A stretch of DNA of 13,284 nucleotides from Candidatus Gerdarchaeota archaeon (GTDB taxonomy: Archaea; Asgardarchaeota; Heimdallarchaeia; JABLTI01), in contig JAEORJ010000122.1 of NCBI GenBank assembly GCA_016840945.1, positions 1 through 13,284 of the forward strand, written 5' to 3'. Positions 1,650 through 13,284 of this stretch are shown in pieces. The position numbers and the translations under genes were made by a program. Numbering within the stretch: position 1 is the first letter of the stretch; every line of letters starts with the position of its first letter. The notes beneath the pieces are model-generated. The model had not been told where the DNA came from and ran no database searches. It was given only the letters and a program-made list of their open reading frames with translations.

Positions 1650-1680
1650 AAAAAAACATTTGAGGAATTATTCCTCAAAT
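1650..1680 (-). terminator. hairpin terminator that contains the VWA stop codon
   Basis: A perfect 23-base palindrome at 1658-1680 has 11-base arms ATTTGAGGAAT and ATTCCTCAAAT around one base. On the minus strand it is followed by G and seven T (1657-1650). The TAA stop of the VWA gene (1670-1668) sits at the hairpin centre, and the codons for the last few residues form the 5' arm. Confidence 0.8.
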
Positions 1681-3146
1681 TCATCATCTTCATATTCGTC
1701 TTCATCGTCGTCTTCGTAGTCTTCTGCATCTTCGATATCTTCGCCGGCACCGCCATACTCTTCTTCTAAAGCTAATTCAACTTCTTCGGTTTCATCTACA
1801 TCATCATAGTCTTCAAAAAGATCATCAGGTATTGATTCAACCAATTCATTAGCTTCAGTTTTAAGAGCTATCATGAACCGTCTGGCTAATAAGTCATAGA
1901 ATTTAGTTAATTCACCTAAATCATTAGCTTCGTAGAATTCACCACGACCAATTTCAGATAATCGTTTTAACAATCGTGAATCTGCTTCACCTAAACCAAT
2001 AGTATAAAGAACAGTGTTAGGATAATCACGAGCACATTTACGAACAACAGGTACGGGATTTATACCTAAACCATTACCTTTGTTTGGTTGTCCATCTGTT
2101 AAAAGAACAATCATAGAAGGATTGATTTTACCAGTTATGGAATTTGGTTCAAATTTAGTGGTCATCTCATAAGCTTTTTGTAATGCACCGCTCATGAAAG
2201 TTAATCCACCGCCTTTTGAGCAACGTTTTGAGACATAATCAGCAATGATTTCTAATCCAGCTGATTTAGCTTCACCAGTACAAGCTATAACTGGTGTTGA
2301 TCCACTTGAACCATATTCGACTTCAAAAACATCAACATCACCAGCGAAACTTAAAATTGACAATTGTTCACCCCAACCACGACTAACTTTCTGTGATAAG
2401 AAAAGAAGTGTAGCTAGAGCGGCTCCTTTAATTCTTGAAACTTTCTTTGCTTCAAATTCATCAAGTAACTGATCTAAATCACGGCCACCTTTAAGACCAC
2501 GTCGTAATCCTTCGACGGCTGTACCAGTACCTCGGACTATCATATCTTCTTTGCCCATAGATCCAGAGACATCAAGAACAAGAACGGCATTAAATGACAT
2601 CTCGCTTGCTGGTACCAATTGTACTTCGACCTCCTTACCTGAAGGATCGATAATACCTACTTCATCACCATCAATATCAGGATCAGAATCAAAGAAACTA
2701 ATTTTTACATGCCCACAACCTGCATCAGGCCAATCAATCTGTAAGTTTTTGTATATAGGTCGGTTTCTAATCACAGCTGTCATTTCATCGAAGTTTTCAA
2801 GGATGTATGATATGCATTCTTCTACAGGTTGACCTTCTAATGGTTCGATGCCAAATTTTACTCTGGTTATTGCTTCTTTTTTAATGTGTGCTTTACGTAC
2901 CTTAACTCTATCTCCATCGCTAATATTTGCGGAATCTAAAATTCCATTATCAACAGCTACTGTATCTACCTCTACTTCATCATTTTCAAGGACTTGTACA
3001 GCACAGCTGTCCTCAAACTCGTTTATTAATTGGATTATATCAAAATCATCAACGCTGATTCGCTCCATGTCTCGCTTATTCATATAAGCTCTGCCATCGA
3101 TTTCACCAACATTAATGACTGAAATATCAATGATTTTTTCAACCAT
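1668..3146 (-). CDS. CDC48 N-domain-like module fused to a von Willebrand A domain, acidic tail
   Basis: The protein is 492 residues from the ATG at 3146. Residues about 5-87 resemble the double-psi barrel of the CDC48/VAT/p97 N-domain: an N-terminal VGEIDGRAYM..RDMERI segment and a SDGDRVKVRKA segment near residue 80, matching the vGrgiarld..tm..l and vGD.V.VrkA patterns. Residues about 89-182 fit the second N-subdomain and its linker. A VWA domain spans about 184-427 with an intact MIDAS metal site: DVSGS (192-196), a Thr in GGLTFMSG (316) and LLTDG (Asp351). The last 55 residues are mostly Asp and Glu. There is no signal peptide or membrane helix, so it is probably cytosolic. No AAA+ ATPase domain is present, so it is not CDC48 itself. 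I infer an adaptor or scaffold role. A GTG nine bases upstream (3155) is in frame, but it lies in a GTGAT box four bases before the ATG and looks like a ribosome-binding site. The gene looks less AT-rich than its neighbours, as highly expressed genes often are. Confidence 0.8.
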   Translation of the reverse strand: MVEKIIDISVINVGEIDGRAYMNKRDMERISVDDFDIIQLINEFEDSCAVQVLENDEVEVDTVAVDNGILDSANISDGDRVKVRKAHIKKEAITRVKFGIEPLEGQPVEECISYILENFDEMTAVIRNRPIYKNLQIDWPDAGCGHVKISFFDSDPDIDGDEVGIIDPSGKEVEVQLVPASEMSFNAVLVLDVSGSMGKEDMIVRGTGTAVEGLRRGLKGGRDLDQLLDEFEAKKVSRIKGAALATLLFLSQKVSRGWGEQLSILSFAGDVDVFEVEYGSSGSTPVIACTGEAKSAGLEIIADYVSKRCSKGGGLTFMSGALQKAYEMTTKFEPNSITGKINPSMIVLLTDGQPNKGNGLGINPVPVVRKCARDYPNTVLYTIGLGEADSRLLKRLSEIGRGEFYEANDLGELTKFYDLLARRFMIALKTEANELVESIPDDLFEDYDDVDETEEVELALEEEYGGAGEDIEDAEDYEDDDEDEYEDDEFEE

Positions 3147-3167
3147 AGTAATCACGTTCCGTCAATG

Positions 3168-4124: not shown

Positions 4125-4205
4125 GTGAATTTTTGTAGGGAATATGTTAAACAACTTAGAAATATTAAATCAAACTTAAACACAAAAAAATCGGAGAAAA
4201 CATCA

Positions 4206-5228
4206 GTGGCAACTTTCTTCAAAGTAGTAGTCCTTGGCGACGGAGGTATTGGAAAAACCTCTATTTGTAACTATCTAACTACAGGCGAATTCTTTGGCAG
4301 CTATAAATTATCCATCGGAGCGGATTTCTTTAGTAAAAAATTAAATGTTGATGGTGAAGAAATCGCGCTACAAATTTGTGATATTGGTGGCCAAGATCAA
4401 TTTGCTGAAATTAGTAATATTTTCACTAAAGGTGCACATGGAGCTATACTTTGTTATGATACAACGAGAAGAGATACACTAGATTCATTAGATCGATGGC
4501 TTACTAAGCTTGAAGATCCAAATATTCCCAAAGTTTTAGTCAGCACAAAAAATGATGTAGAAGATCTCCGAGAAGTTTTAGATGAAGAAGGTTTAGAAAC
4601 AGCTAAGAGATTAGATATTCCTTATTATATTCCCACAACTAGCTTGAAGGGAATCGGTATTACTGAGACTTTTGAATCTATTAGCCGACTTATGCTTTTG
4701 AATAAAAAAGAAATGGATGCACCTTTAACATCCATGGTTGATGTAACACAAGATAAACAAGATGAAGTTTTCCCTGTAAGCTCTTCTCAACATATATCAG
4801 CTCAACCTTTAGGAATTGGTCGTGTACCAACTGGAAATAATGATGATATCACTCCTCCAACTGCGCCATTAGCACCTAATATTGAACCTGTTCAAGAATT
4901 TCAACCACCAGTTGTTGAACCCACTGAAGCAGAACCCTCATTTACAAAACCAATATCATTAGCCCCACCAATTGTTACTACTGAAACTATGAAACAACCA
5001 ACTGAAGAGATTATTAAACCAATTATCGGTTCAGAAGAAGAAAGTGTTGTAGAACCACCTACAGAACCTGAAAAAACAGCCACTCAACCAATAAGTACAA
5101 TTACCCCACCTATTTCCGAACAAGAAAAGGAACCCGAGTCAACTCAAACTGACAATTCAGGCAGCTTTACATTCTTACAAAAATTAAAAGAAGAGAGAAA
5201 ACGTTTAGAAGAAGAATCTGACGAATAA
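4206..5228 (+). CDS. Ras/Rab-superfamily small GTPase with long proline-rich tail
   Basis: The protein is 340 residues from the GTG at 4206, which has GGAG nine bases upstream (4193-4196). The frame is open back to 4125, but the promoter at 4111-4124 places transcription start after that codon, and starting at 4206 gives the usual short lead into the fold (MATFFKVVVLGDGGIGKTS). Motifs: G1 GDGGIGKT (11-18), switch I SIGADFF with Ser36 in place of the usual Thr, G3 DIGGQ (59-63, DTAGQ in Ras), G4 TKND (114-117), G5 TSLKG (145-149). The G domain ends near residue 170. The remaining 170 residues are rich in Pro, Thr, Glu and Ile and look disordered, ending in a charged amphipathic stretch (LQKLKEERKRLEEESDE). 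There is no C-terminal cysteine for prenylation, so any membrane recruitment must be indirect. It is a molecular switch of unknown pathway, typical of the expanded GTPase sets of Asgard archaea. Confidence 0.88.
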   Translation: MATFFKVVVLGDGGIGKTSICNYLTTGEFFGSYKLSIGADFFSKKLNVDGEEIALQICDIGGQDQFAEISNIFTKGAHGAILCYDTTRRDTLDSLDRWLTKLEDPNIPKVLVSTKNDVEDLREVLDEEGLETAKRLDIPYYIPTTSLKGIGITETFESISRLMLLNKKEMDAPLTSMVDVTQDKQDEVFPVSSSQHISAQPLGIGRVPTGNNDDITPPTAPLAPNIEPVQEFQPPVVEPTEAEPSFTKPISLAPPIVTTETMKQPTEEIIKPIIGSEEESVVEPPTEPEKTATQPISTITPPISEQEKEPESTQTDNSGSFTFLQKLKEERKRLEEESDE

Positions 5229-6519: not shown

Positions 6520-7557
6520 ATGACAAAAAAAATCGGTATTCTAACAAGTGGTGGAGATGCACCAGGATTAAATCCTGTTATAGCTGGTTATACAAGAACA
6601 GCGATAAAGAATGGGTATGAAGTTATTGGATTTCTTGATGGCTGGAAAGGATTGATTGATGGTGAAACCATTCCATTAACACTTAATGTAGTAAAGGAAA
6701 TTGTGCAAGAAGGAGGAACAATTCTTGGATCCTCTCGTACAAATCCTCGAAAAATAGAGAATGGGTTCGAAAAAATTCTGAACACTTTAAAAGATCTAAA
6801 GATTCATGCATTTGCTGCTTGTGGGGGCGATGATACTTTAGGAGTAGCTAAAATTCTAAATGAAAAAGATGCCAATGTAGTAGGTGTACCTAAAACTATT
6901 GATAATGATCTTGAAGCGACTGATCAAACTTTTGGTTTTGATACATCAATAAATATAGCTATGGAGGCTATTGATCGCTTAAGAACAACTGCAAAATCAC
7001 ATCACAGAGTCTTTGTCTTAGAATTGATGGGTAGACATTCAGGTTGGATTGCTTTAGAAGCGGGAATGGCTGGAAACGCAAATGCAATAATCATTCCAGA
7101 ATTTGAATACTCAATTGATGAACTATGTGAATTATTGAATAAAAGACATGCTAATGACCGCACATATAGTATAGTTGTAGTAGCTGAAGGAGTGCTTTTC
7201 AATGAAATGAAGGAAAAAATTGAACAAGCTGGGAAGGATTCATTTGGTAATATAATTTTAGCTGATTTAAAAGTAGGTGATTTCTTAGCTGAGGAAATTA
7301 CTAAACGTACCAATTTACCTGTACGAGCTGTAACCCTTGGGCACATTCAACGAGGAGGACCTCCAAGTGCTTATGATAGATTTTTAGGATTACGTTATGG
7401 TGCAAAAGCAGCTGAACTAATTCATGAAAAGAAATTTGGGCAAATGGTCAGCCTTCAAGGAACCAAGATTACTGATGTGCCAATTGATAAAGCGGTAGCT
7501 GAACGAAAAGTTGTTCCTAAAGAGTTGTGGGATTTAGCTAAATCATTTTTTGGATAA
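6520..7557 (+). CDS. PPi-type 6-phosphofructokinase (group III-like)
   Basis: The 345-residue protein has the full PFK-A family layout: TSGGDAPGLN (9-18), a phosphoryl-donor loop CGGDD (101-105), PKTIDND with the catalytic base region (124-130), MGRHSGW (170-176) and GHIQRGG near the C-terminal third. The two residues that set donor use in this family are Asp105 and Lys125 (Gly in ATP-dependent E. coli PfkA, where the sequences are GGDGS and PGTIDND). This Asp/Lys pair marks pyrophosphate-dependent enzymes (EC 2.7.1.90), and the surrounding DTLGVA and TFGFDTSINIAMEAIDRL resemble actinobacterial and Thermoproteus group III enzymes. It would interconvert fructose 6-phosphate and fructose 1,6-bisphosphate reversibly in the cytosol, serving glycolysis or gluconeogenesis. 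GGTG lies seven bases before the ATG. It is a single-gene unit with its own terminator. Donor use is inferred from residues, not shown. Confidence 0.93.
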   Translation: MTKKIGILTSGGDAPGLNPVIAGYTRTAIKNGYEVIGFLDGWKGLIDGETIPLTLNVVKEIVQEGGTILGSSRTNPRKIENGFEKILNTLKDLKIHAFAACGGDDTLGVAKILNEKDANVVGVPKTIDNDLEATDQTFGFDTSINIAMEAIDRLRTTAKSHHRVFVLELMGRHSGWIALEAGMAGNANAIIIPEFEYSIDELCELLNKRHANDRTYSIVVVAEGVLFNEMKEKIEQAGKDSFGNIILADLKVGDFLAEEITKRTNLPVRAVTLGHIQRGGPPSAYDRFLGLRYGAKAAELIHEKKFGQMVSLQGTKITDVPIDKAVAERKVVPKELWDLAKSFFG

Positions 7558-7576
7558 TCGATAAATTAATATTTTT

Positions 7577-7607
7577 TACCCTCTTTCAGGGGGTACTTTT
7601 ATTTTTT
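7577..7607 (+). terminator. hairpin terminator of the phosphofructokinase gene
   Basis: TACCCTC (7577-7583) pairs with GGGGGTA (7589-7595) through seven pairs, one of them T-G, around the loop TTTCA. TTTTATTTTTT follows (7597-7607). Confidence 0.75.
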
Positions 7608-7608
7608 A

Positions 7609-7617
7609 ATTTAAATT
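7609..7617 (+). promoter_or_regulatory. TATA box of the hydroxyproline operon
   Basis: ATTTAAATT lies just after the PFK terminator. A TSS near 7639 gives a leader of about 7 bases to the ATG at 7646. Confidence 0.45.
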
Positions 7618-7645
7618 AGGATTATCTGTATTAAGTTGTGATATT

Positions 7646-8701
7646 ATGAAAATTTCATATGATAGTTTAGCAGAATTAGTAAATTGGCAACCACCTAGAA
7701 ATTGGTTAAAAATATCAACTATTGATGCCCATTCTGCTGGTGAACCTTTGCGAATTATTTTATCAGGTTTTCCTAAGTTACAAGGCAAATCAATTCTAGA
7801 TAATAGAAGAGAAGCTATGGAAAAGTATGACCATTTACGAACTGCAATAATGTGGGAACCTAGAGGGCACGCTGACATGTACGGTTGTATTATTACCCCA
7901 CCTATTTCTAAGGATGCAAATTTCGGGGTATTATTTATCCATAATGAAGGATTTAGTACAATGTGTGGGCATGCGATTTTAGCTTTAACAAAAGTAGTGC
8001 TAGAAACAAGCTTAATACCAAAAGAAAGCCCAATTACCACAATAAAGATTGATACACCGGCAGGGTTAGTAACTTCATATGCAAATATTGCTGATGATAA
8101 AATTGAAAGCGTTTATTTTCATAATGTCCCCTCATTTGCAGTATTAACAAATGAAGAAATAGAAATACCTCAATTAGGTACTATTAAATTTGATATTGCT
8201 TTTGGAGGGGCTTATTATGCATTTGTTCAAGCTGAAGAGATTGGTATCTCATTAGCTAAAGAGAATGCCAAAGGATTGATAGAGAAAGGTATGATTATCA
8301 AACAAGCAATTATGCAAAAATATCCTTTACAGCACCCTTTTGAAAGTGATTTGAACTTTCTCTATGGCACGATTTTTATTGGGGAACCAAAATCTTGTGA
8401 GGCAAATAGTAGGAATGTTTGTATTTTTGCTAATGGGGAAGTTGATCGTTGTCCAACTGGGACAGGTGTTAGTGCTAGAATGGCTTTACATTTTGAAAAA
8501 GGTGAAATTAGCCTAAATGATCAATTAATCATTGAAAGTATTATAGGTAGCAAATACATCGGAAGCATTGTAGAATTAACGAAATTTGGTCCATATAAAG
8601 CTGTTATACCTCGAGTTGAAGGCACAGCTCACATTACAGGGAAGAATGATTTCTTTATTGACCCAACAGATCCTCTTTGTAATGGATTTATAATTAGATA
8701 A
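7646..8701 (+). CDS. trans-3-hydroxy-L-proline dehydratase (proline racemase family)
   Basis: The 351-residue protein has the proline racemase fold markers: DAHSAGEPLR (27-36), PRGHADMYG (72-80), the first catalytic cysteine in MCGH (Cys107) and the second catalytic loop DRCPTGTG (267-274). True racemases and 4-hydroxyproline epimerases have Cys at the second position (DRSPCGTG); here it is Thr271. The Cys/Thr pair is the signature of trans-3-hydroxy-L-proline dehydratase (EC 4.2.1.77), which removes water to give pyrroline-2-carboxylate. Oddly, a cysteine (Cys269) sits two residues earlier, where Ser is usual. The downstream reductase 28 bases away fits the next step, which strengthens the call. 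A GTGAT box lies three bases before the ATG. The reaction assignment is by family residues and context. Confidence 0.82.
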   Translation: MKISYDSLAELVNWQPPRNWLKISTIDAHSAGEPLRIILSGFPKLQGKSILDNRREAMEKYDHLRTAIMWEPRGHADMYGCIITPPISKDANFGVLFIHNEGFSTMCGHAILALTKVVLETSLIPKESPITTIKIDTPAGLVTSYANIADDKIESVYFHNVPSFAVLTNEEIEIPQLGTIKFDIAFGGAYYAFVQAEEIGISLAKENAKGLIEKGMIIKQAIMQKYPLQHPFESDLNFLYGTIFIGEPKSCEANSRNVCIFANGEVDRCPTGTGVSARMALHFEKGEISLNDQLIIESIIGSKYIGSIVELTKFGPYKAVIPRVEGTAHITGKNDFFIDPTDPLCNGFIIR

Positions 8702-8729
8702 TTAGAATTGGTTAATGATAGTGATATGA

Positions 8730-9719
8730 ATGACATGTAAGGATTTGAAAATCTTATCAACCCAAGACATTAGCAAAATTATGCCAATGAAAGAAGCAAT
8801 TAAGATTATGAGAAGTGCTTTTACTCAAATTACAAAAGGAGAAGGTATAGTTCCAGAAAGAATTCATTTAGATATAACAGAAAATAATGGTACAGCTTTA
8901 GTAATGCCAAGTTTTTCTCCTATAGAAAAAAAGATCGGATTGAAATTAATCACTCTATACAATAATAATCCATCATTAGGGTTACCAGTTATACATGCAC
9001 TAATGCTTATATTTGATGGGAAAACGGGACAACCTTTAGTACTAATGGATGGTAGCTTATTAACAGCATTAAGAACAGGTGCAGGTTCAGGTTTGGCTAC
9101 TGAATTATTAGCTAATAAGAATGCAAAAATAGCTGCCATTTTTGGAGCAGGCGAACAAGGAAAAACACAATTAGAAGCGATTAATTGTGTAAGAAATCTT
9201 GAATGTGTTTATGTTTATGATCCTAATGATAAACAAGCACAAAAATTCACTAAGGAAATGGAAGATAGATTAGCTATCAACATTGAATCATCTCAAAAAG
9301 AAACAAAGTTACTTGAAGCAGATATTATTTGTACTGCTACAAATTCACTCAAACCAGTTTTCAATGATGAAAATATCAGCAACGGGGTTCATATAAATGC
9401 TATTGGATCTTATAAACCTCAGGTAAGAGAGATTCCATCGGAAACTATTGCTAAATCAAAAATTATTGTTGATCATAAAGAGAGCTGCCTTTTAGAAGCT
9501 GGAGACATAATTATCCCAATGAAAGAAGGAATAATAAAAAAGGATCATATAATTGCTGAATTAGGAGAGGTTTTACTTACAAATAAAAAAATTAGAACAC
9601 AATCTGATGATATCACTTTATACAAATCTGTAGGAAATGCAATTCAAGATCTAGTATTAGCAAACCATATTTATTTGAAGGCTAAAAAAATTGATTTAGG
9701 AACAGATATAGCTTTTTAG
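8730..9719 (+). CDS. ketimine reductase, probable pyrroline-2-carboxylate reductase (OCD/mu-crystallin family)
   Basis: The 329-residue protein has the ornithine cyclodeaminase/mu-crystallin layout: substrate-side Arg44 and Lys72, LRTGAGSGLAT (114-124), a Rossmann NAD(P) loop IFGAGEQGKTQ (137-147), INAIGSYKP (222-230) and LYKSVGNAIQDL (297-308). Genuine ornithine cyclodeaminases have a catalytic Asp in the loop after the sixth Rossmann strand (GGD.PGK type); here that loop reads GSYKP, which argues for an imine reductase. Placed 28 bases after the dehydratase, it would reduce pyrroline-2-carboxylate to L-proline with NAD(P)H. Alanine dehydrogenase activity, known for an archaeal member, is the main alternative. 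An AGTGAT box precedes the ATG by five bases. Confidence 0.83.
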   Translation: MTCKDLKILSTQDISKIMPMKEAIKIMRSAFTQITKGEGIVPERIHLDITENNGTALVMPSFSPIEKKIGLKLITLYNNNPSLGLPVIHALMLIFDGKTGQPLVLMDGSLLTALRTGAGSGLATELLANKNAKIAAIFGAGEQGKTQLEAINCVRNLECVYVYDPNDKQAQKFTKEMEDRLAINIESSQKETKLLEADIICTATNSLKPVFNDENISNGVHINAIGSYKPQVREIPSETIAKSKIIVDHKESCLLEAGDIIIPMKEGIIKKDHIIAELGEVLLTNKKIRTQSDDITLYKSVGNAIQDLVLANHIYLKAKKIDLGTDIAF

Positions 9720-9770
9720 AGTCTAATCGGAATGTATATATGGAAGGGTTTTTAGATTGGGTTGTAAATC

Positions 9771-9789
9771 TATGTAATTGTATGTAAAT
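9771..9789 (+). promoter_or_regulatory. tandem TATGTAA motif upstream of the amidohydrolase TATA box
   Basis: The sequence TATGTAATTGTATGTAAAT consists of two TATGTAAW units with a 10-base period. It is 17 of 19 identical to the element at 3175-3193 (minus strand). Both copies point toward their gene and lie directly upstream of its TATA box (about 5 bases here, abutting there). Confidence 0.4.
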
Positions 9790-9794
9790 TAGTC

Positions 9795-9802
9795 TTTATT
9801 TA
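9795..9802 (+). promoter_or_regulatory. probable TATA box of the amidohydrolase-ligase operon
   Basis: TTTATTTA lies upstream of a TSS predicted near 9824, giving a leader of about 35 bases to the ATG at 9860. Confidence 0.4.
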
Positions 9803-9825
9803 ACTGAAAAGCTTATTACAGTTAA
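9800..9825. repeat. inverted repeat between TATA box and predicted TSS
   Basis: TTAACTG (9800-9806) and CAGTTAA (9819-9825) are perfect reverse complements with a 12-base spacer. The left arm overlaps the TATA box and the right arm reaches the predicted TSS, a position that would suit a repressor operator. Confidence 0.35.
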
Positions 9826-9859
9826 GGAAGAATAAACAGCAAAAAAGAGAGTAAAAAAA

Positions 9860-11287
9860 ATGATTATACTATATGACCCTGAAAATCCTAAAGGCAGTGC
9901 ATTAAAAGTAAACATAGTAGATACACATACTCATCTTGGAAAAGAAGAAGTAGTAAAAGGCAAAGGCAAGGATTATAGAATTATTAGACCTAAAGATCAT
10001 TTGGATTTTTATGAAAAATTAAAATATGATTTGCATAAACGAATGAATGATTATCCTGAAGATTATGCTTATGCACCTACTTCTAATGCTAAGGATTTTA
10101 GTCGACCTGCAACAAATTTACAAGAAATAATATTCAAAGAGAAAAGAACCACACAAAATATTGGATGGATGGCAGATAAAATTGTGACTTTTCCTCTTCA
10201 TGGCGTACTTTCAGGGGACACAACTCCTCATTTTGTAAAATCAAATAATTATATTTTAACAAGAGCACAAACTCTCGAGTATGGATCCAGATTGGTCCCC
10301 TTTTGTAGAGTTGATCCACATGATGGTGAATTGGCAGTTGATGAAATAAAACGTTGTGTGGATTATGGTGCTAGAGGATTAAAATTACATCCAATTTCTG
10401 AAGAATGGATTGAAGACATAGTTTCTGAAAACGTTATAAATATCGTTCATCAAGCAGTTGATAATAAACTACCAGTTATCTTTGATTGCCAAAATTATCG
10501 CACCGCTGAAGATATTCATCAAGTTGTTATGGAAGTGCGAAAAAGAGCTAAAAACGAAGACTTTACTGTTATACTAGGTCATTTTGGTTTCGATTATCAA
10601 AAACCTGGTATGTTTGAGATTTTAAGTGACCCAAATATCAAAACTGAAACCTCAGGTATGAGGGGTGACGATTGTATTATTTTCTACCGTAATTGTGTTA
10701 ATTTGGTAGAAAATTGGCAATACTCCGCTATGTTTGGTACTGACCACAATTACTTCAGTGTTCCACAAGCAAGTGATCATTTGACATTTCTATTTTCACA
10801 TAAAGCCAAGGATTTAGGCATTACGTTTAATGATATAAGACATGTGCTTGGAATTAATGCTCTTCGAATGCTTAAGATTTATTGGCCAACAAAAGTTCTT
10901 CAAAGAGAGGGCGTAAATAATGCTAAAGTAACTTGGAAAGATTTCGACAAGATATTAAATTGTAAAGATTATGAACAGCTTTCAAATGTAGTATCAGATT
11001 TGTGCTCTATCTCAGGTGTTTATTTCAATAATGATTCATTATTTGATCCTTCGGGTGTTAATGTCTATGAGGAACTCTTTATACTCAATATTTTTGCTGA
11101 TATTATAGATCTTAGAAGAAGTTTCGTTATTCAATTAAAAGATACTAATAAGATCAAAGTCTCTGAAATAACCAAATTAATGGATTATGCCTCACAAATC
11201 ACTAAGATTCTAGAGGAAAGAGAGGAATCATTCCCATTCACTCAACAATATTTGTTTGATTATTTATTACATCAAAAACCAAAATAA
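9860..11287 (+). CDS. amidohydrolase family 2 metal-dependent hydrolase with extra C-terminal domain
   Basis: The 475-residue protein has a TIM-barrel amidohydrolase_2 core (about residues 17-356): HTH metal pair (His23, His25) in VDTHTHLG, RGLKLHP (172-178), VILGHFG with His241, FGTDHNYF with the catalytic-type Asp295, and the closing helix VLGINALRMLKIYWP. The strand-5 position that usually carries a metal-binding His reads LPVIFDCQ (204-211), with no His, so the metal site may be unusual. A segment of about 45 residues after the HTH pair (34-80) and a C-terminal region of about 120 helical residues (357-475) are not typical of the family. Relatives include decarboxylases of aromatic acids and various C-N or C-C bond hydrolases; the substrate cannot be told from sequence. 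It lies 24 bases before the carboxylate-amine ligase, almost certainly in one operon. The ribosome-binding site is weak. Confidence 0.78.
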   Translation: MIILYDPENPKGSALKVNIVDTHTHLGKEEVVKGKGKDYRIIRPKDHLDFYEKLKYDLHKRMNDYPEDYAYAPTSNAKDFSRPATNLQEIIFKEKRTTQNIGWMADKIVTFPLHGVLSGDTTPHFVKSNNYILTRAQTLEYGSRLVPFCRVDPHDGELAVDEIKRCVDYGARGLKLHPISEEWIEDIVSENVINIVHQAVDNKLPVIFDCQNYRTAEDIHQVVMEVRKRAKNEDFTVILGHFGFDYQKPGMFEILSDPNIKTETSGMRGDDCIIFYRNCVNLVENWQYSAMFGTDHNYFSVPQASDHLTFLFSHKAKDLGITFNDIRHVLGINALRMLKIYWPTKVLQREGVNNAKVTWKDFDKILNCKDYEQLSNVVSDLCSISGVYFNNDSLFDPSGVNVYEELFILNIFADIIDLRRSFVIQLKDTNKIKVSEITKLMDYASQITKILEEREESFPFTQQYLFDYLLHQKPK

Positions 11288-11311: not shown

Positions 11312-13284
11312 ATGAGTAATATCGATCCCCAATCAAAGAGTACTACAAACTCGTCTCAAAAGCTGAGAAAATTACCCTTTACACATGGTATTGAGATTGA
11401 GAATTTTATAACTGATCGCCGGGGTGATATTCTAGAAGATGGCAAAGAGCTAGTTGCTGTTTGGGATCAAATGTTCAATGGAGCACTAGATTTCTTTAAA
11501 TCATTAACAAGTTCAACAACTAATGTTCCCGAATACATCAGAAACAAGATCAAGAGAGTTACTAGAAAAGATGTTGAAAGACATGGTAAAATTATTCGTT
11601 ACGTTCAACTCCATTATCAATTTAATGGGCAAGTAGCTGAAATCAATATTTTTGGCCCCGATCCAAATATCTCTCAAATAACTTGGTTATTAGAGTTAGT
11701 AACTCCACCATGTGAATACTTAGAGGAGTTAGACTGGTGGGTTAATACATTATATATAGCAGCAACAAATTCTATAACAAAAGGCTATAATATTCAACCG
11801 CTTGGTTTCAATCCTTATCAAACTGAATATCGTGCGGGCGTTACTTGTGGTGAACATCACCATATTGGTGGATTCAAAAATGAAAAAGAGAAGAAAGCAG
11901 CCTATAATATGATTAGAGCTTATATTCCTCATTTAATAGCACTATCAAATACATCTCCTTTCCTTGATAGCAAGCCATCAGGCAGAATTATTTTAAAGAA
12001 AGGAGAGGATGGTAGAACATTAATTTTAGCACCAGATTGTGTTAGAAGTTATCGTTTAAAGGAAAATTCAGGTCAATTAGGACCAAATATACCTGAATAT
12101 TTGCCTTATGTTTCAGCTTCTTTTACACAACAAGATTTTTCAAGATATGTAAGAAAAGAAATTCCTGATGATCGTTATGTCGATGCATATCCTTTTACTA
12201 CATATGGTACTATAGAATTTCGGTTTTTCGATGCTCAATTTGATCAAAATATTCGTATTGCTATTATTATTCTCATACAAGCTCTTGCACTTAAAGCAGT
12301 TAAATTATTACATGAAGGAATACCTATTCCTGAAGTAAAAGGAAATACTATTTTCGAGCACCGCAAAAGAGCTGTTAATTTTGGGATGTTTGCTAAGTTT
12401 CAAGGAGATCCAAGTATAGAAGCTACAGGTGGTCTTTTTGCTAAATATTACAACCACAATCCTGATACAGGTGGTCCACCTGGGAAAATCTATGAATCTT
12501 TAAAATCGTTAATGATTTGGTTAAAACCTGAATTTAGAGATTTAGAGGTAACTGAAGAGGATATCTTAGCACTTCTTATCATGCTTTGGGGAACGGCTAG
12601 AATCGCGCCACCAATTTCAGCTGCTACTTTTATGTTATATTTATTTGAACAAAATCATGGCAATATTGCTAATGTTATTAGTAGCTTAGCGCTAATAAGT
12701 GGCAGACCTAGAAAATCTTTTACAGAAATACTTGGAAGACCAGATACTTCCCTAACCAATTTATTTTCAACTAAAGCTGCTAAACCAATTAAAGGATCAG
12801 ACACCACTAAAAGTGCATTAGCAAGAAGATTACAACAAGATTCTCGCCAGAGAAGAAAAGTAGCTATGGCTAAGGAAAAAGCCAGGTTGAAGGCAAAACA
12901 AGTTCAAGTTGCTAAAGTTCAAAAAGAGAAATTTAAGAAAGAACGTGAAATGGAAAGAATTAGACAAGAACGTTTAAGAAAACTTGAACAAGCTAAAAAA
13001 CCACCTCCTAAACCTTTAGCAACAACTAGAAAAGCTACAATTACACCAACTAGTTATATATCTAAAAAACCAATGACAAAACCAAAATCTCCGATTGTAC
13101 CAACTACAAAAAAACCAGCAGTATCAAAACCACCTAGATCTGTGCCTGCTAAAAAACCTACAGTAGCTGAAGTAAAAACAACTAAACCAAAGAGTTCTCC
13201 AAAGAAAGCAAAAGTAAGCTTGAAGACTAAACAACGAAAACCGGTTTCTAAACCAAAAACAACCATGAAAAAGACAACTTCAAA
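11312..13284 (+). CDS. GCS2-family carboxylate-amine ligase with coiled coil and basic tail, 3' end outside window
   Basis: An uninterrupted frame runs from the ATG at 11312 past the window end (657 codons visible). The catalytic part (about residues 20-460) resembles the glutamate-cysteine ligase type 2/YbdK family: HGIEIEN (25-31), LELVTPPCEYLEELDWWV (around residues 130-147), GEHHHIGG (180-187), PHLIALSNTSPFLDS, and TIEFRFFDAQ (300-309). These match the family's G.E.E, HvHvG, LlALsanSPf and tlE.R..D motifs. Such enzymes use ATP to join a carboxylate, often glutamate's, to an amine. Residues about 502-563 are a highly charged, Arg/Lys/Gln-rich probable coiled coil. From 564 on the chain is a disordered tail of Lys, Pro, Thr, Ser and Ala with almost no acidic residues, like a histone H1 tail. 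Typical family members are about 370-500 residues and lack this tail. Its partner is the amidohydrolase 24 bases upstream. The substrates and the role of the tail are unknown. Confidence 0.82.
   Translation, partial: MSNIDPQSKSTTNSSQKLRKLPFTHGIEIENFITDRRGDILEDGKELVAVWDQMFNGALDFFKSLTSSTTNVPEYIRNKIKRVTRKDVERHGKIIRYVQLHYQFNGQVAEINIFGPDPNISQITWLLELVTPPCEYLEELDWWVNTLYIAATNSITKGYNIQPLGFNPYQTEYRAGVTCGEHHHIGGFKNEKEKKAAYNMIRAYIPHLIALSNTSPFLDSKPSGRIILKKGEDGRTLILAPDCVRSYRLKENSGQLGPNIPEYLPYVSASFTQQDFSRYVRKEIPDDRYVDAYPFTTYGTIEFRFFDAQFDQNIRIAIIILIQALALKAVKLLHEGIPIPEVKGNTIFEHRKRAVNFGMFAKFQGDPSIEATGGLFAKYYNHNPDTGGPPGKIYESLKSLMIWLKPEFRDLEVTEEDILALLIMLWGTARIAPPISAATFMLYLFEQNHGNIANVISSLALISGRPRKSFTEILGRPDTSLTNLFSTKAAKPIKGSDTTKSALARRLQQDSRQRRKVAMAKEKARLKAKQVQVAKVQKEKFKKEREMERIRQERLRKLEQAKKPPPKPLATTRKATITPTSYISKKPMTKPKSPIVPTTKKPAVSKPPRSVPAKKPTVAEVKTTKPKSSPKKAKVSLKTKQRKPVSKPKTTMKKTTS

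Follow-up and report, generated by a model that had tools for sequence, protein, structure and literature searches.

A truncated GCS2-type ligase gene as a candidate member of a conserved Asgard module with an amidohydrolase and a VWA protein

Results

Overview of the module

The window (the whole stretch of 13,284 nucleotides analysed here) ends inside an open frame that may well encode a truncated GCS2-type ligase of a conserved three-protein Asgard module, the other two members being an Amidohydro_2-family hydrolase and a DPBB+VWA protein. The basic stretch at the end of this frame, which the first-pass annotation described as a C-terminal tail, is a flexible linker inside a large Asgard ligase. 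The features considered in this work are the following:

1668..3155, minus strand: DPBB (CDC48_N-like) + VWA protein (PF00092; PF02359 below cut-off)
1671..1835, minus strand: acidic tail at the C-terminus of the VWA protein, approximately its last 55 residues, read from the sequence
9860..11287, plus strand: Amidohydro_2-family metal hydrolase (PF04909), 24 bp upstream of the ligase
11312..13284, plus strand: GCS2-type carboxylate-amine ligase with the 3' part missing (open frame; PF04107; full-length homologues)
11369..12712, plus strand: ligase catalytic domain, residues 20-467
12803..13012, plus strand: ligase charged helix, approximately residues 498-567 (27/27 close homologues, net charge +15 to +25)
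13013..13284, plus strand: first part of the basic Lys/Pro/Thr/Ser linker, from residue 568

The ligase catalytic domain

The ligase frame runs from the ATG at 11312 to the end of the window without a stop and encodes 657 residues, while about 1,090 are expected from its homologues. The GCS2-type catalytic region proposed earlier was recovered as a Pfam match to PF04107 (residues 174-224), narrowly above the cut-off (22.4 vs. 21 bits); some relatives miss this cut-off (P0092 scores 16.5 bits). The protein carries the glutamine synthetase-like catalytic fold with the GxExE, HxHxG and TxExR motifs intact, and the catalytic residues are E28/E30 (GIExE), E128 (LELVTPP), H182/H184 (HHHxG) and E302/R304 (TIExR). 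GCS2-type enzymes make an acyl phosphate that is then transferred to an amine; amide-bond formation by the window ligase is predicted from its family membership.

In structure comparisons the closest folds were YbdK and the plant GCL. YbdK/GCS2 ligases (1r8g, 1tt4) share only about 19-20% identity with the window-type ligase, which differs from them by an added helix, a linker and Ig domains, and by its pairing with an amidohydrolase and a VWA protein. Eight GCS2-type NCBIfam families were matched, all far below their cut-offs (best 52.2 vs. 176.4). PafA and Dop have the fold in common with the Asgard ligase, yet match it more weakly than YbdK does (7-9% identity in the alignments).

The basic stretch is an internal linker

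In the protein search the 7991 candidates sharing most words were scored, and the best 120 of 154 relatives were considered. P0002-P0027 (65-75% identity to the window ligase) are 1072-1102 residues long, except for the partial record P0018. The close-homologue set (n = 27) comprises P0002-P0029 minus P0018, and P0030-P0032 (413-793 aa) were also excluded. Alignment of these proteins revealed a catalytic domain followed by the charged helix, the basic stretch and about 350 further residues. These residues were modelled by AlphaFold2 as beta-sandwiches (mean pLDDT 93) and form triple Ig-like domains that in the window ligase would lie beyond the window end; their structure matches were generic, with large rmsd.

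The open frame, the GCS2 match, the charged helix and the basic stretch of the first-pass annotation were all found as described, but the C-terminal position of the stretch was not. Approximately 66-70 charged residues are predicted or read as helix, of which the structure model took in the first residues only, and the basic stretch covers 90 residues up to the window end (74% K/P/T/S/R, net +25, one acidic residue). A C-terminal histone H1-like tail is contradicted by the homologues, which continue for the roughly 350 residues, Ig-like part included, past the basic stretch. A frame error or misassembly near 12800, named at the outset as a possible source of the tail, is not supported, since the same helix and basic stretch are present in 27/27 close homologues.

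The linker of the close homologues has 118-182 residues, a net charge of +34 to +61 and 0-2 acidic residues (27/27). Over the 27 close homologues and the window, mean identity to P0002 was 78% in the catalytic domain, 65% in the helix and 31% in the linker; for the C-terminal part, compared in the 27 homologues only, it was 50%. Within the linker, conservation is confined to a short QAYAS motif and some isolated residues. With an identity of 31% and a constant basic composition, it is therefore the composition that is kept and not the sequence.

Elsewhere in Asgards the stretch is mixed in charge or absent, so that its presence in orthologues was borne out in the close lineage only. The Hodarchaeales-type linker region holds 16-35 acidic residues in 45/45 proteins (net +2 to +37, median +22); by eye, such a linker is missing from both P0090 and P0092, and P0092 lacks the Ig part as well. 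A further group of short ligases (550-590 aa) has little beyond the catalytic domain, without linker and Ig domains, indicating that both are dispensable for the core function. The basic linker is therefore a feature of one lineage, outside the core mechanism.

These observations bear on the first reading of the stretch, in which a basic tail tethers the enzyme to DNA or RNA or has its own lysines modified. The strong basic composition, kept in 27/27 proteins despite the low linker identity, speaks for it. Nevertheless, the stretch is an internal linker placed before Ig-like domains, and the linkers of other Asgards are mixed in charge or missing, which makes this role very improbable. As a whole, the earlier interpretation was partly supported.

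Some relatives carry unexpected labels. P0106 and P0124, among the best 120 of 312 matches, are labelled Thermoplasmatota; P0002 (71% identity) is labelled Zixibacteria, and P0009 (71%) and P0041 (44%) Bathyarchaeia. The last three may be mis-binned records. P0139 and P0141, at about 1,250 aa, are ligases that end in a double zinc ribbon.

The amidohydrolase and VWA partners

The amidohydrolase lies directly upstream of the ligase in 9/9 close loci; in L001 the locus is intact (6540-11276). Its catalytic motifs are intact: residues D21, H23, H25, K175, H177, H241 and D295 of the amidohydrolase were identical in 29/29 sequences. The search returned 48 related proteins, including the window's own, at E 3e-51 or better, followed by a gap to E 1e-9; the named relatives bear Asgard-group names, except one labelled Bathyarchaeia, and the family looks almost confined to Asgards. 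Enzymes of the PF04909 type may be decarboxylases or lyases rather than amidases.

The VWA gene is located 6.7 kb further upstream than the amidohydrolase, on the opposite strand, and its homologues begin at a Met three codons inside the start annotated in the window. The MIDAS motif DxSxS...T...D is present in the window protein (DVSGS, T319, D354), and D195, S197, S199, T319 and D354 were invariant in 7/7 aligned proteins.

The acidic tail was found in 4/4 Heimdall-type VWA proteins read (the window, L081, L082 and L083) and was absent from the six others aligned. The basic linker might accordingly serve as an electrostatic dock for this tail, as a fully basic linker and an acidic VWA tail occur in the same lineage. 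We regard this attractive idea as improbable: the co-presence of linker and tail may be a single evolutionary event, and Hodarchaeales-type linkers are also net basic while the VWA proteins there have no tail.

Several other genes were observed in the window. Proline racemase/trans-3-hydroxyproline dehydratase-like and ornithine-cyclodeaminase-family genes (7646-9719) separate the PFK gene from the amidohydrolase, while PFK and amidohydrolase are directly adjacent in 9/9 close loci; this two-gene segment is probably an insertion in the window lineage. A Ras/Rab-like small GTPase (4125-5228) is extended at its C-terminus by about 170 residues with a high content of Pro, Thr and Glu. GTPase homologues occupy the same place in 7/9 close loci, and the other two (L004 and L008) begin downstream of the GTPase position. 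An NADH dehydrogenase subunit H-like membrane protein (3-893, PF00146) is cut by the window start.

Co-occurrence in Asgard genomes

Co-occurrence was analysed in 148 genomes from the phylum of G001 (threshold E<=1e-20), whose Asgard identity is taken from L001, a locus of G001 labelled 'Asgard group archaeon'. Ligase matches at 1e-20 < E <= 1e-3 (11 of 88 genomes) were left out. The ligase was present in 77 genomes, the amidohydrolase in 74 and the VWA protein in 75; ligase and amidohydrolase occurred together in 72, ligase and VWA in 69, amidohydrolase and VWA in 69, and all three in 67. Five ligase genomes had no amidohydrolase and eight no VWA match (10/77 without one or both partners). 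The genomes are related, so these counts are not independent, and as they are also fragmented, the counts are descriptive; Fisher values calculated from them take no account of kinship.

The genes are also close to each other. Ligase and amidohydrolase lay at most 15 kb apart on one contig in 57/72 genomes with both. With extra VWA copies set aside, and VWA matches counted where their contig also had a ligase or amidohydrolase match, ligase and VWA were at most 15 kb apart in 36/69 genomes, and amidohydrolase and VWA at most 1 kb apart in 36/69; the three were linked in 15-kb steps in 35/67. Eight genomes (G005, G015, G023, G031, G039, G046, G052 and G058) harbour two ligases, and seven of them have at least two amidohydrolase matches, compared to at most one in every other genome. 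In four of these seven genomes, a fragment or an amidohydrolase-VWA fusion paralogue accounts for the third match.

Gene orders and fusions

Gene order varied between loci (L010-L040, duplicates or loci with short flanks, were excluded from the neighbourhood count). The amidohydrolase was present in 29/50 fetched loci, and in 24/29 it and the ligase were neighbours on one strand, with a spacing of -4 to 44 bp. The window type has the order amidohydrolase-ligase. The order amidohydrolase-ligase-VWA was found in L041, L042 and L080, where amidohydrolase and ligase overlap by 4 bp, and in L054-L058 the ligase faces the VWA gene, or VWA plus amidohydrolase, on the opposite strand. In the short-ligase loci the ligase precedes the amidohydrolase in 11/13, the two genes being 4.5-4.9 kb apart in the remaining two, and VWA was absent from the genes flanking the ligase in all 13. 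The 1140-aa ligases (19 loci) had no amidohydrolase within four genes; on contigs reaching far enough, amidohydrolase and VWA lie side by side several kb away, and the pair was found in one piece of the DNA fetched for three 1140-aa-ligase genomes.

Two kinds of fusion were observed. P0179, the only VWA match among the 226 collected proteins, joins DPBB+VWA (residues 4-407) and ligase (450-912) in one polypeptide. Amidohydrolase-like and VWA-like regions are fused in frames of 878-909 aa (L093-L097, in G031, G039, G050, G058 and G106), the fusion being present in 5/5 frames, which were chosen because matches pointed there. By eye, the active-site residues look eroded in one of the five, L093. 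In L096 and L097 the fusion frame lies beside separate amidohydrolase and VWA genes.

Two further families without a Pfam match were seen in these neighbourhoods. One, of about 222-259 aa, was present in 20 loci (L054:8778-9557 and L061-L079), usually directly upstream of the 1140-1190-aa ligases, and is possibly a fourth module member. The other, of about 595-658 aa, immediately precedes the short ligases (13 loci; L043:202-2178), and by eye its start looks Ig-like.

The three genes travel together and therefore probably act together on a common target. The neighbourhood could instead reflect shared vertical inheritance alone, with three proteins of unrelated tasks; the distance matrices correlate with r 0.97 (33 loci, no control pair), as any vertically inherited pair might. 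The varied gene orders, the joint copy number and the two kinds of fusion make this explanation highly doubtful.

Discussion

Comparison with known systems

Pupylation offers one comparison. Dop is a paralogue of PafA, whereas the hydrolytic partner in the Asgard module has a different fold from its ligase. Around 50 loci, no Pup-like small protein was found among 262 ORFs of 35-120 aa. Two small-ORF families recurred in at least four loci; each occurs in a single locus type, and by eye neither showed a Pup-like trait. We reject a Pup-like system on this lack of a conserved nearby small ORF together with the weaker fold match, although a modifier might be encoded elsewhere. A role in phage defence is also rejected, since no PADLOC family matched the ligase, the amidohydrolase, the VWA protein or P0002 at E<=0.001.

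FluG works on the same principle, in that it too pairs an amide ligase with an amidohydrolase, as described in the available part of PMC6478659. Its ligase half is of the glutamine synthetase I type and fused to the amidohydrolase in a single protein, while the Asgard ligase is GCS2-type (Pfam GCS2 only, best fold YbdK) and encoded next to the amidohydrolase by an adjacent gene; that part of PMC6478659 mentions no VWA protein. The HxH, K175, H177, H241 and D295 of the Asgard amidohydrolase compare with H, H, K, H, H and D in FluG (PMC6478659, same part), the second-site His of the Asgard enzyme being unplaced. The GCS2-related families of Iyer et al. 2008 (the transglutaminase-fused Rv2566 type and the Clostridium CJD_1902 type; PMC2588565) are likewise uncharacterised ligases with unusual fusions or gene partners. 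Their partners are other ones, and section 6 of PMC2588565 names no Ig-like, VWA or amidohydrolase partner. No description of the Asgard module was found in the open-access literature; relatives could be mentioned in the survey of amidoligases that Iyer et al. published in 2009. What is new is the partner set, the pairing of an amide ligase with an amidohydrolase being already known.

Proposed mechanism

We propose, at about even odds, that the module carries out ATP-dependent amide ligation on an acceptor that is macromolecular or held on a scaffold, with the amidohydrolase counteracting or continuing the reaction and the VWA protein serving as an adaptor. The ligase would phosphorylate a carboxylate with ATP, probably the gamma-carboxylate of glutamate, and would join the activated carboxylate to an amine. 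The metal-dependent amidohydrolase would then hydrolyse the product or perform the next step on it, while the VWA protein would use its MIDAS metal site to hold a protein partner or target. Together, the basic helix, the linker and the Ig-like domains may form a tether from which the catalytic head reaches an acceptor, probably a macromolecule, held elsewhere on the complex. The nature of the acceptor, the direction of the hydrolase and the role of the linker are guesses.

A small-molecule metabolism is a credible but less probable alternative. The ligase would make a gamma-glutamyl amine or dipeptide (gamma-glutamylcysteine-like or FluG/PuuA-like), the amidohydrolase would cleave or process it, and the Ig domains and linker would only organise the enzyme. 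The closeness of the ligase fold to YbdK and plant GCL is consistent with this alternative, as are the near-catalytic-only ligases of 550-590 aa, which still pair with the amidohydrolase, and FluG, an amidohydrolase plus gamma-glutamyl ligase with a proposed gamma-glutamylated intermediate (PMC6478659, available part). However, the ligase scores far below the NCBIfam GCS2 equivalog cut-offs, and a soluble enzyme of small-molecule metabolism would not usually have a VWA partner, a fusion to a VWA protein or a double-zinc-ribbon form.

We prefer the macromolecular acceptor because of the constant VWA partner, the Ig domains, the linker and the zinc-ribbon variants. It is weakened by the existence of short ligases, by the similarity to YbdK and by the lack of a Pup-like ORF. 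A more specific version, to which we give rather low credence, is a reversible protein modification in Asgards: the ligase would put glutamate or another carboxylate on target amines, the VWA/DPBB protein would present the target and the amidohydrolase would remove the modification. If true, the archaea most closely related to eukaryotes would possess a third way of tagging proteins through amide bonds, alongside pupylation and the ubiquitin-like systems.

The components are each of known general kinds, and their combination is widespread in Asgards (67/148 genomes). A ligase acting on proteins would mean a previously unrecognised reversible tagging system in Asgards; one acting on small molecules would mean a previously unrecognised gamma-glutamyl pathway.
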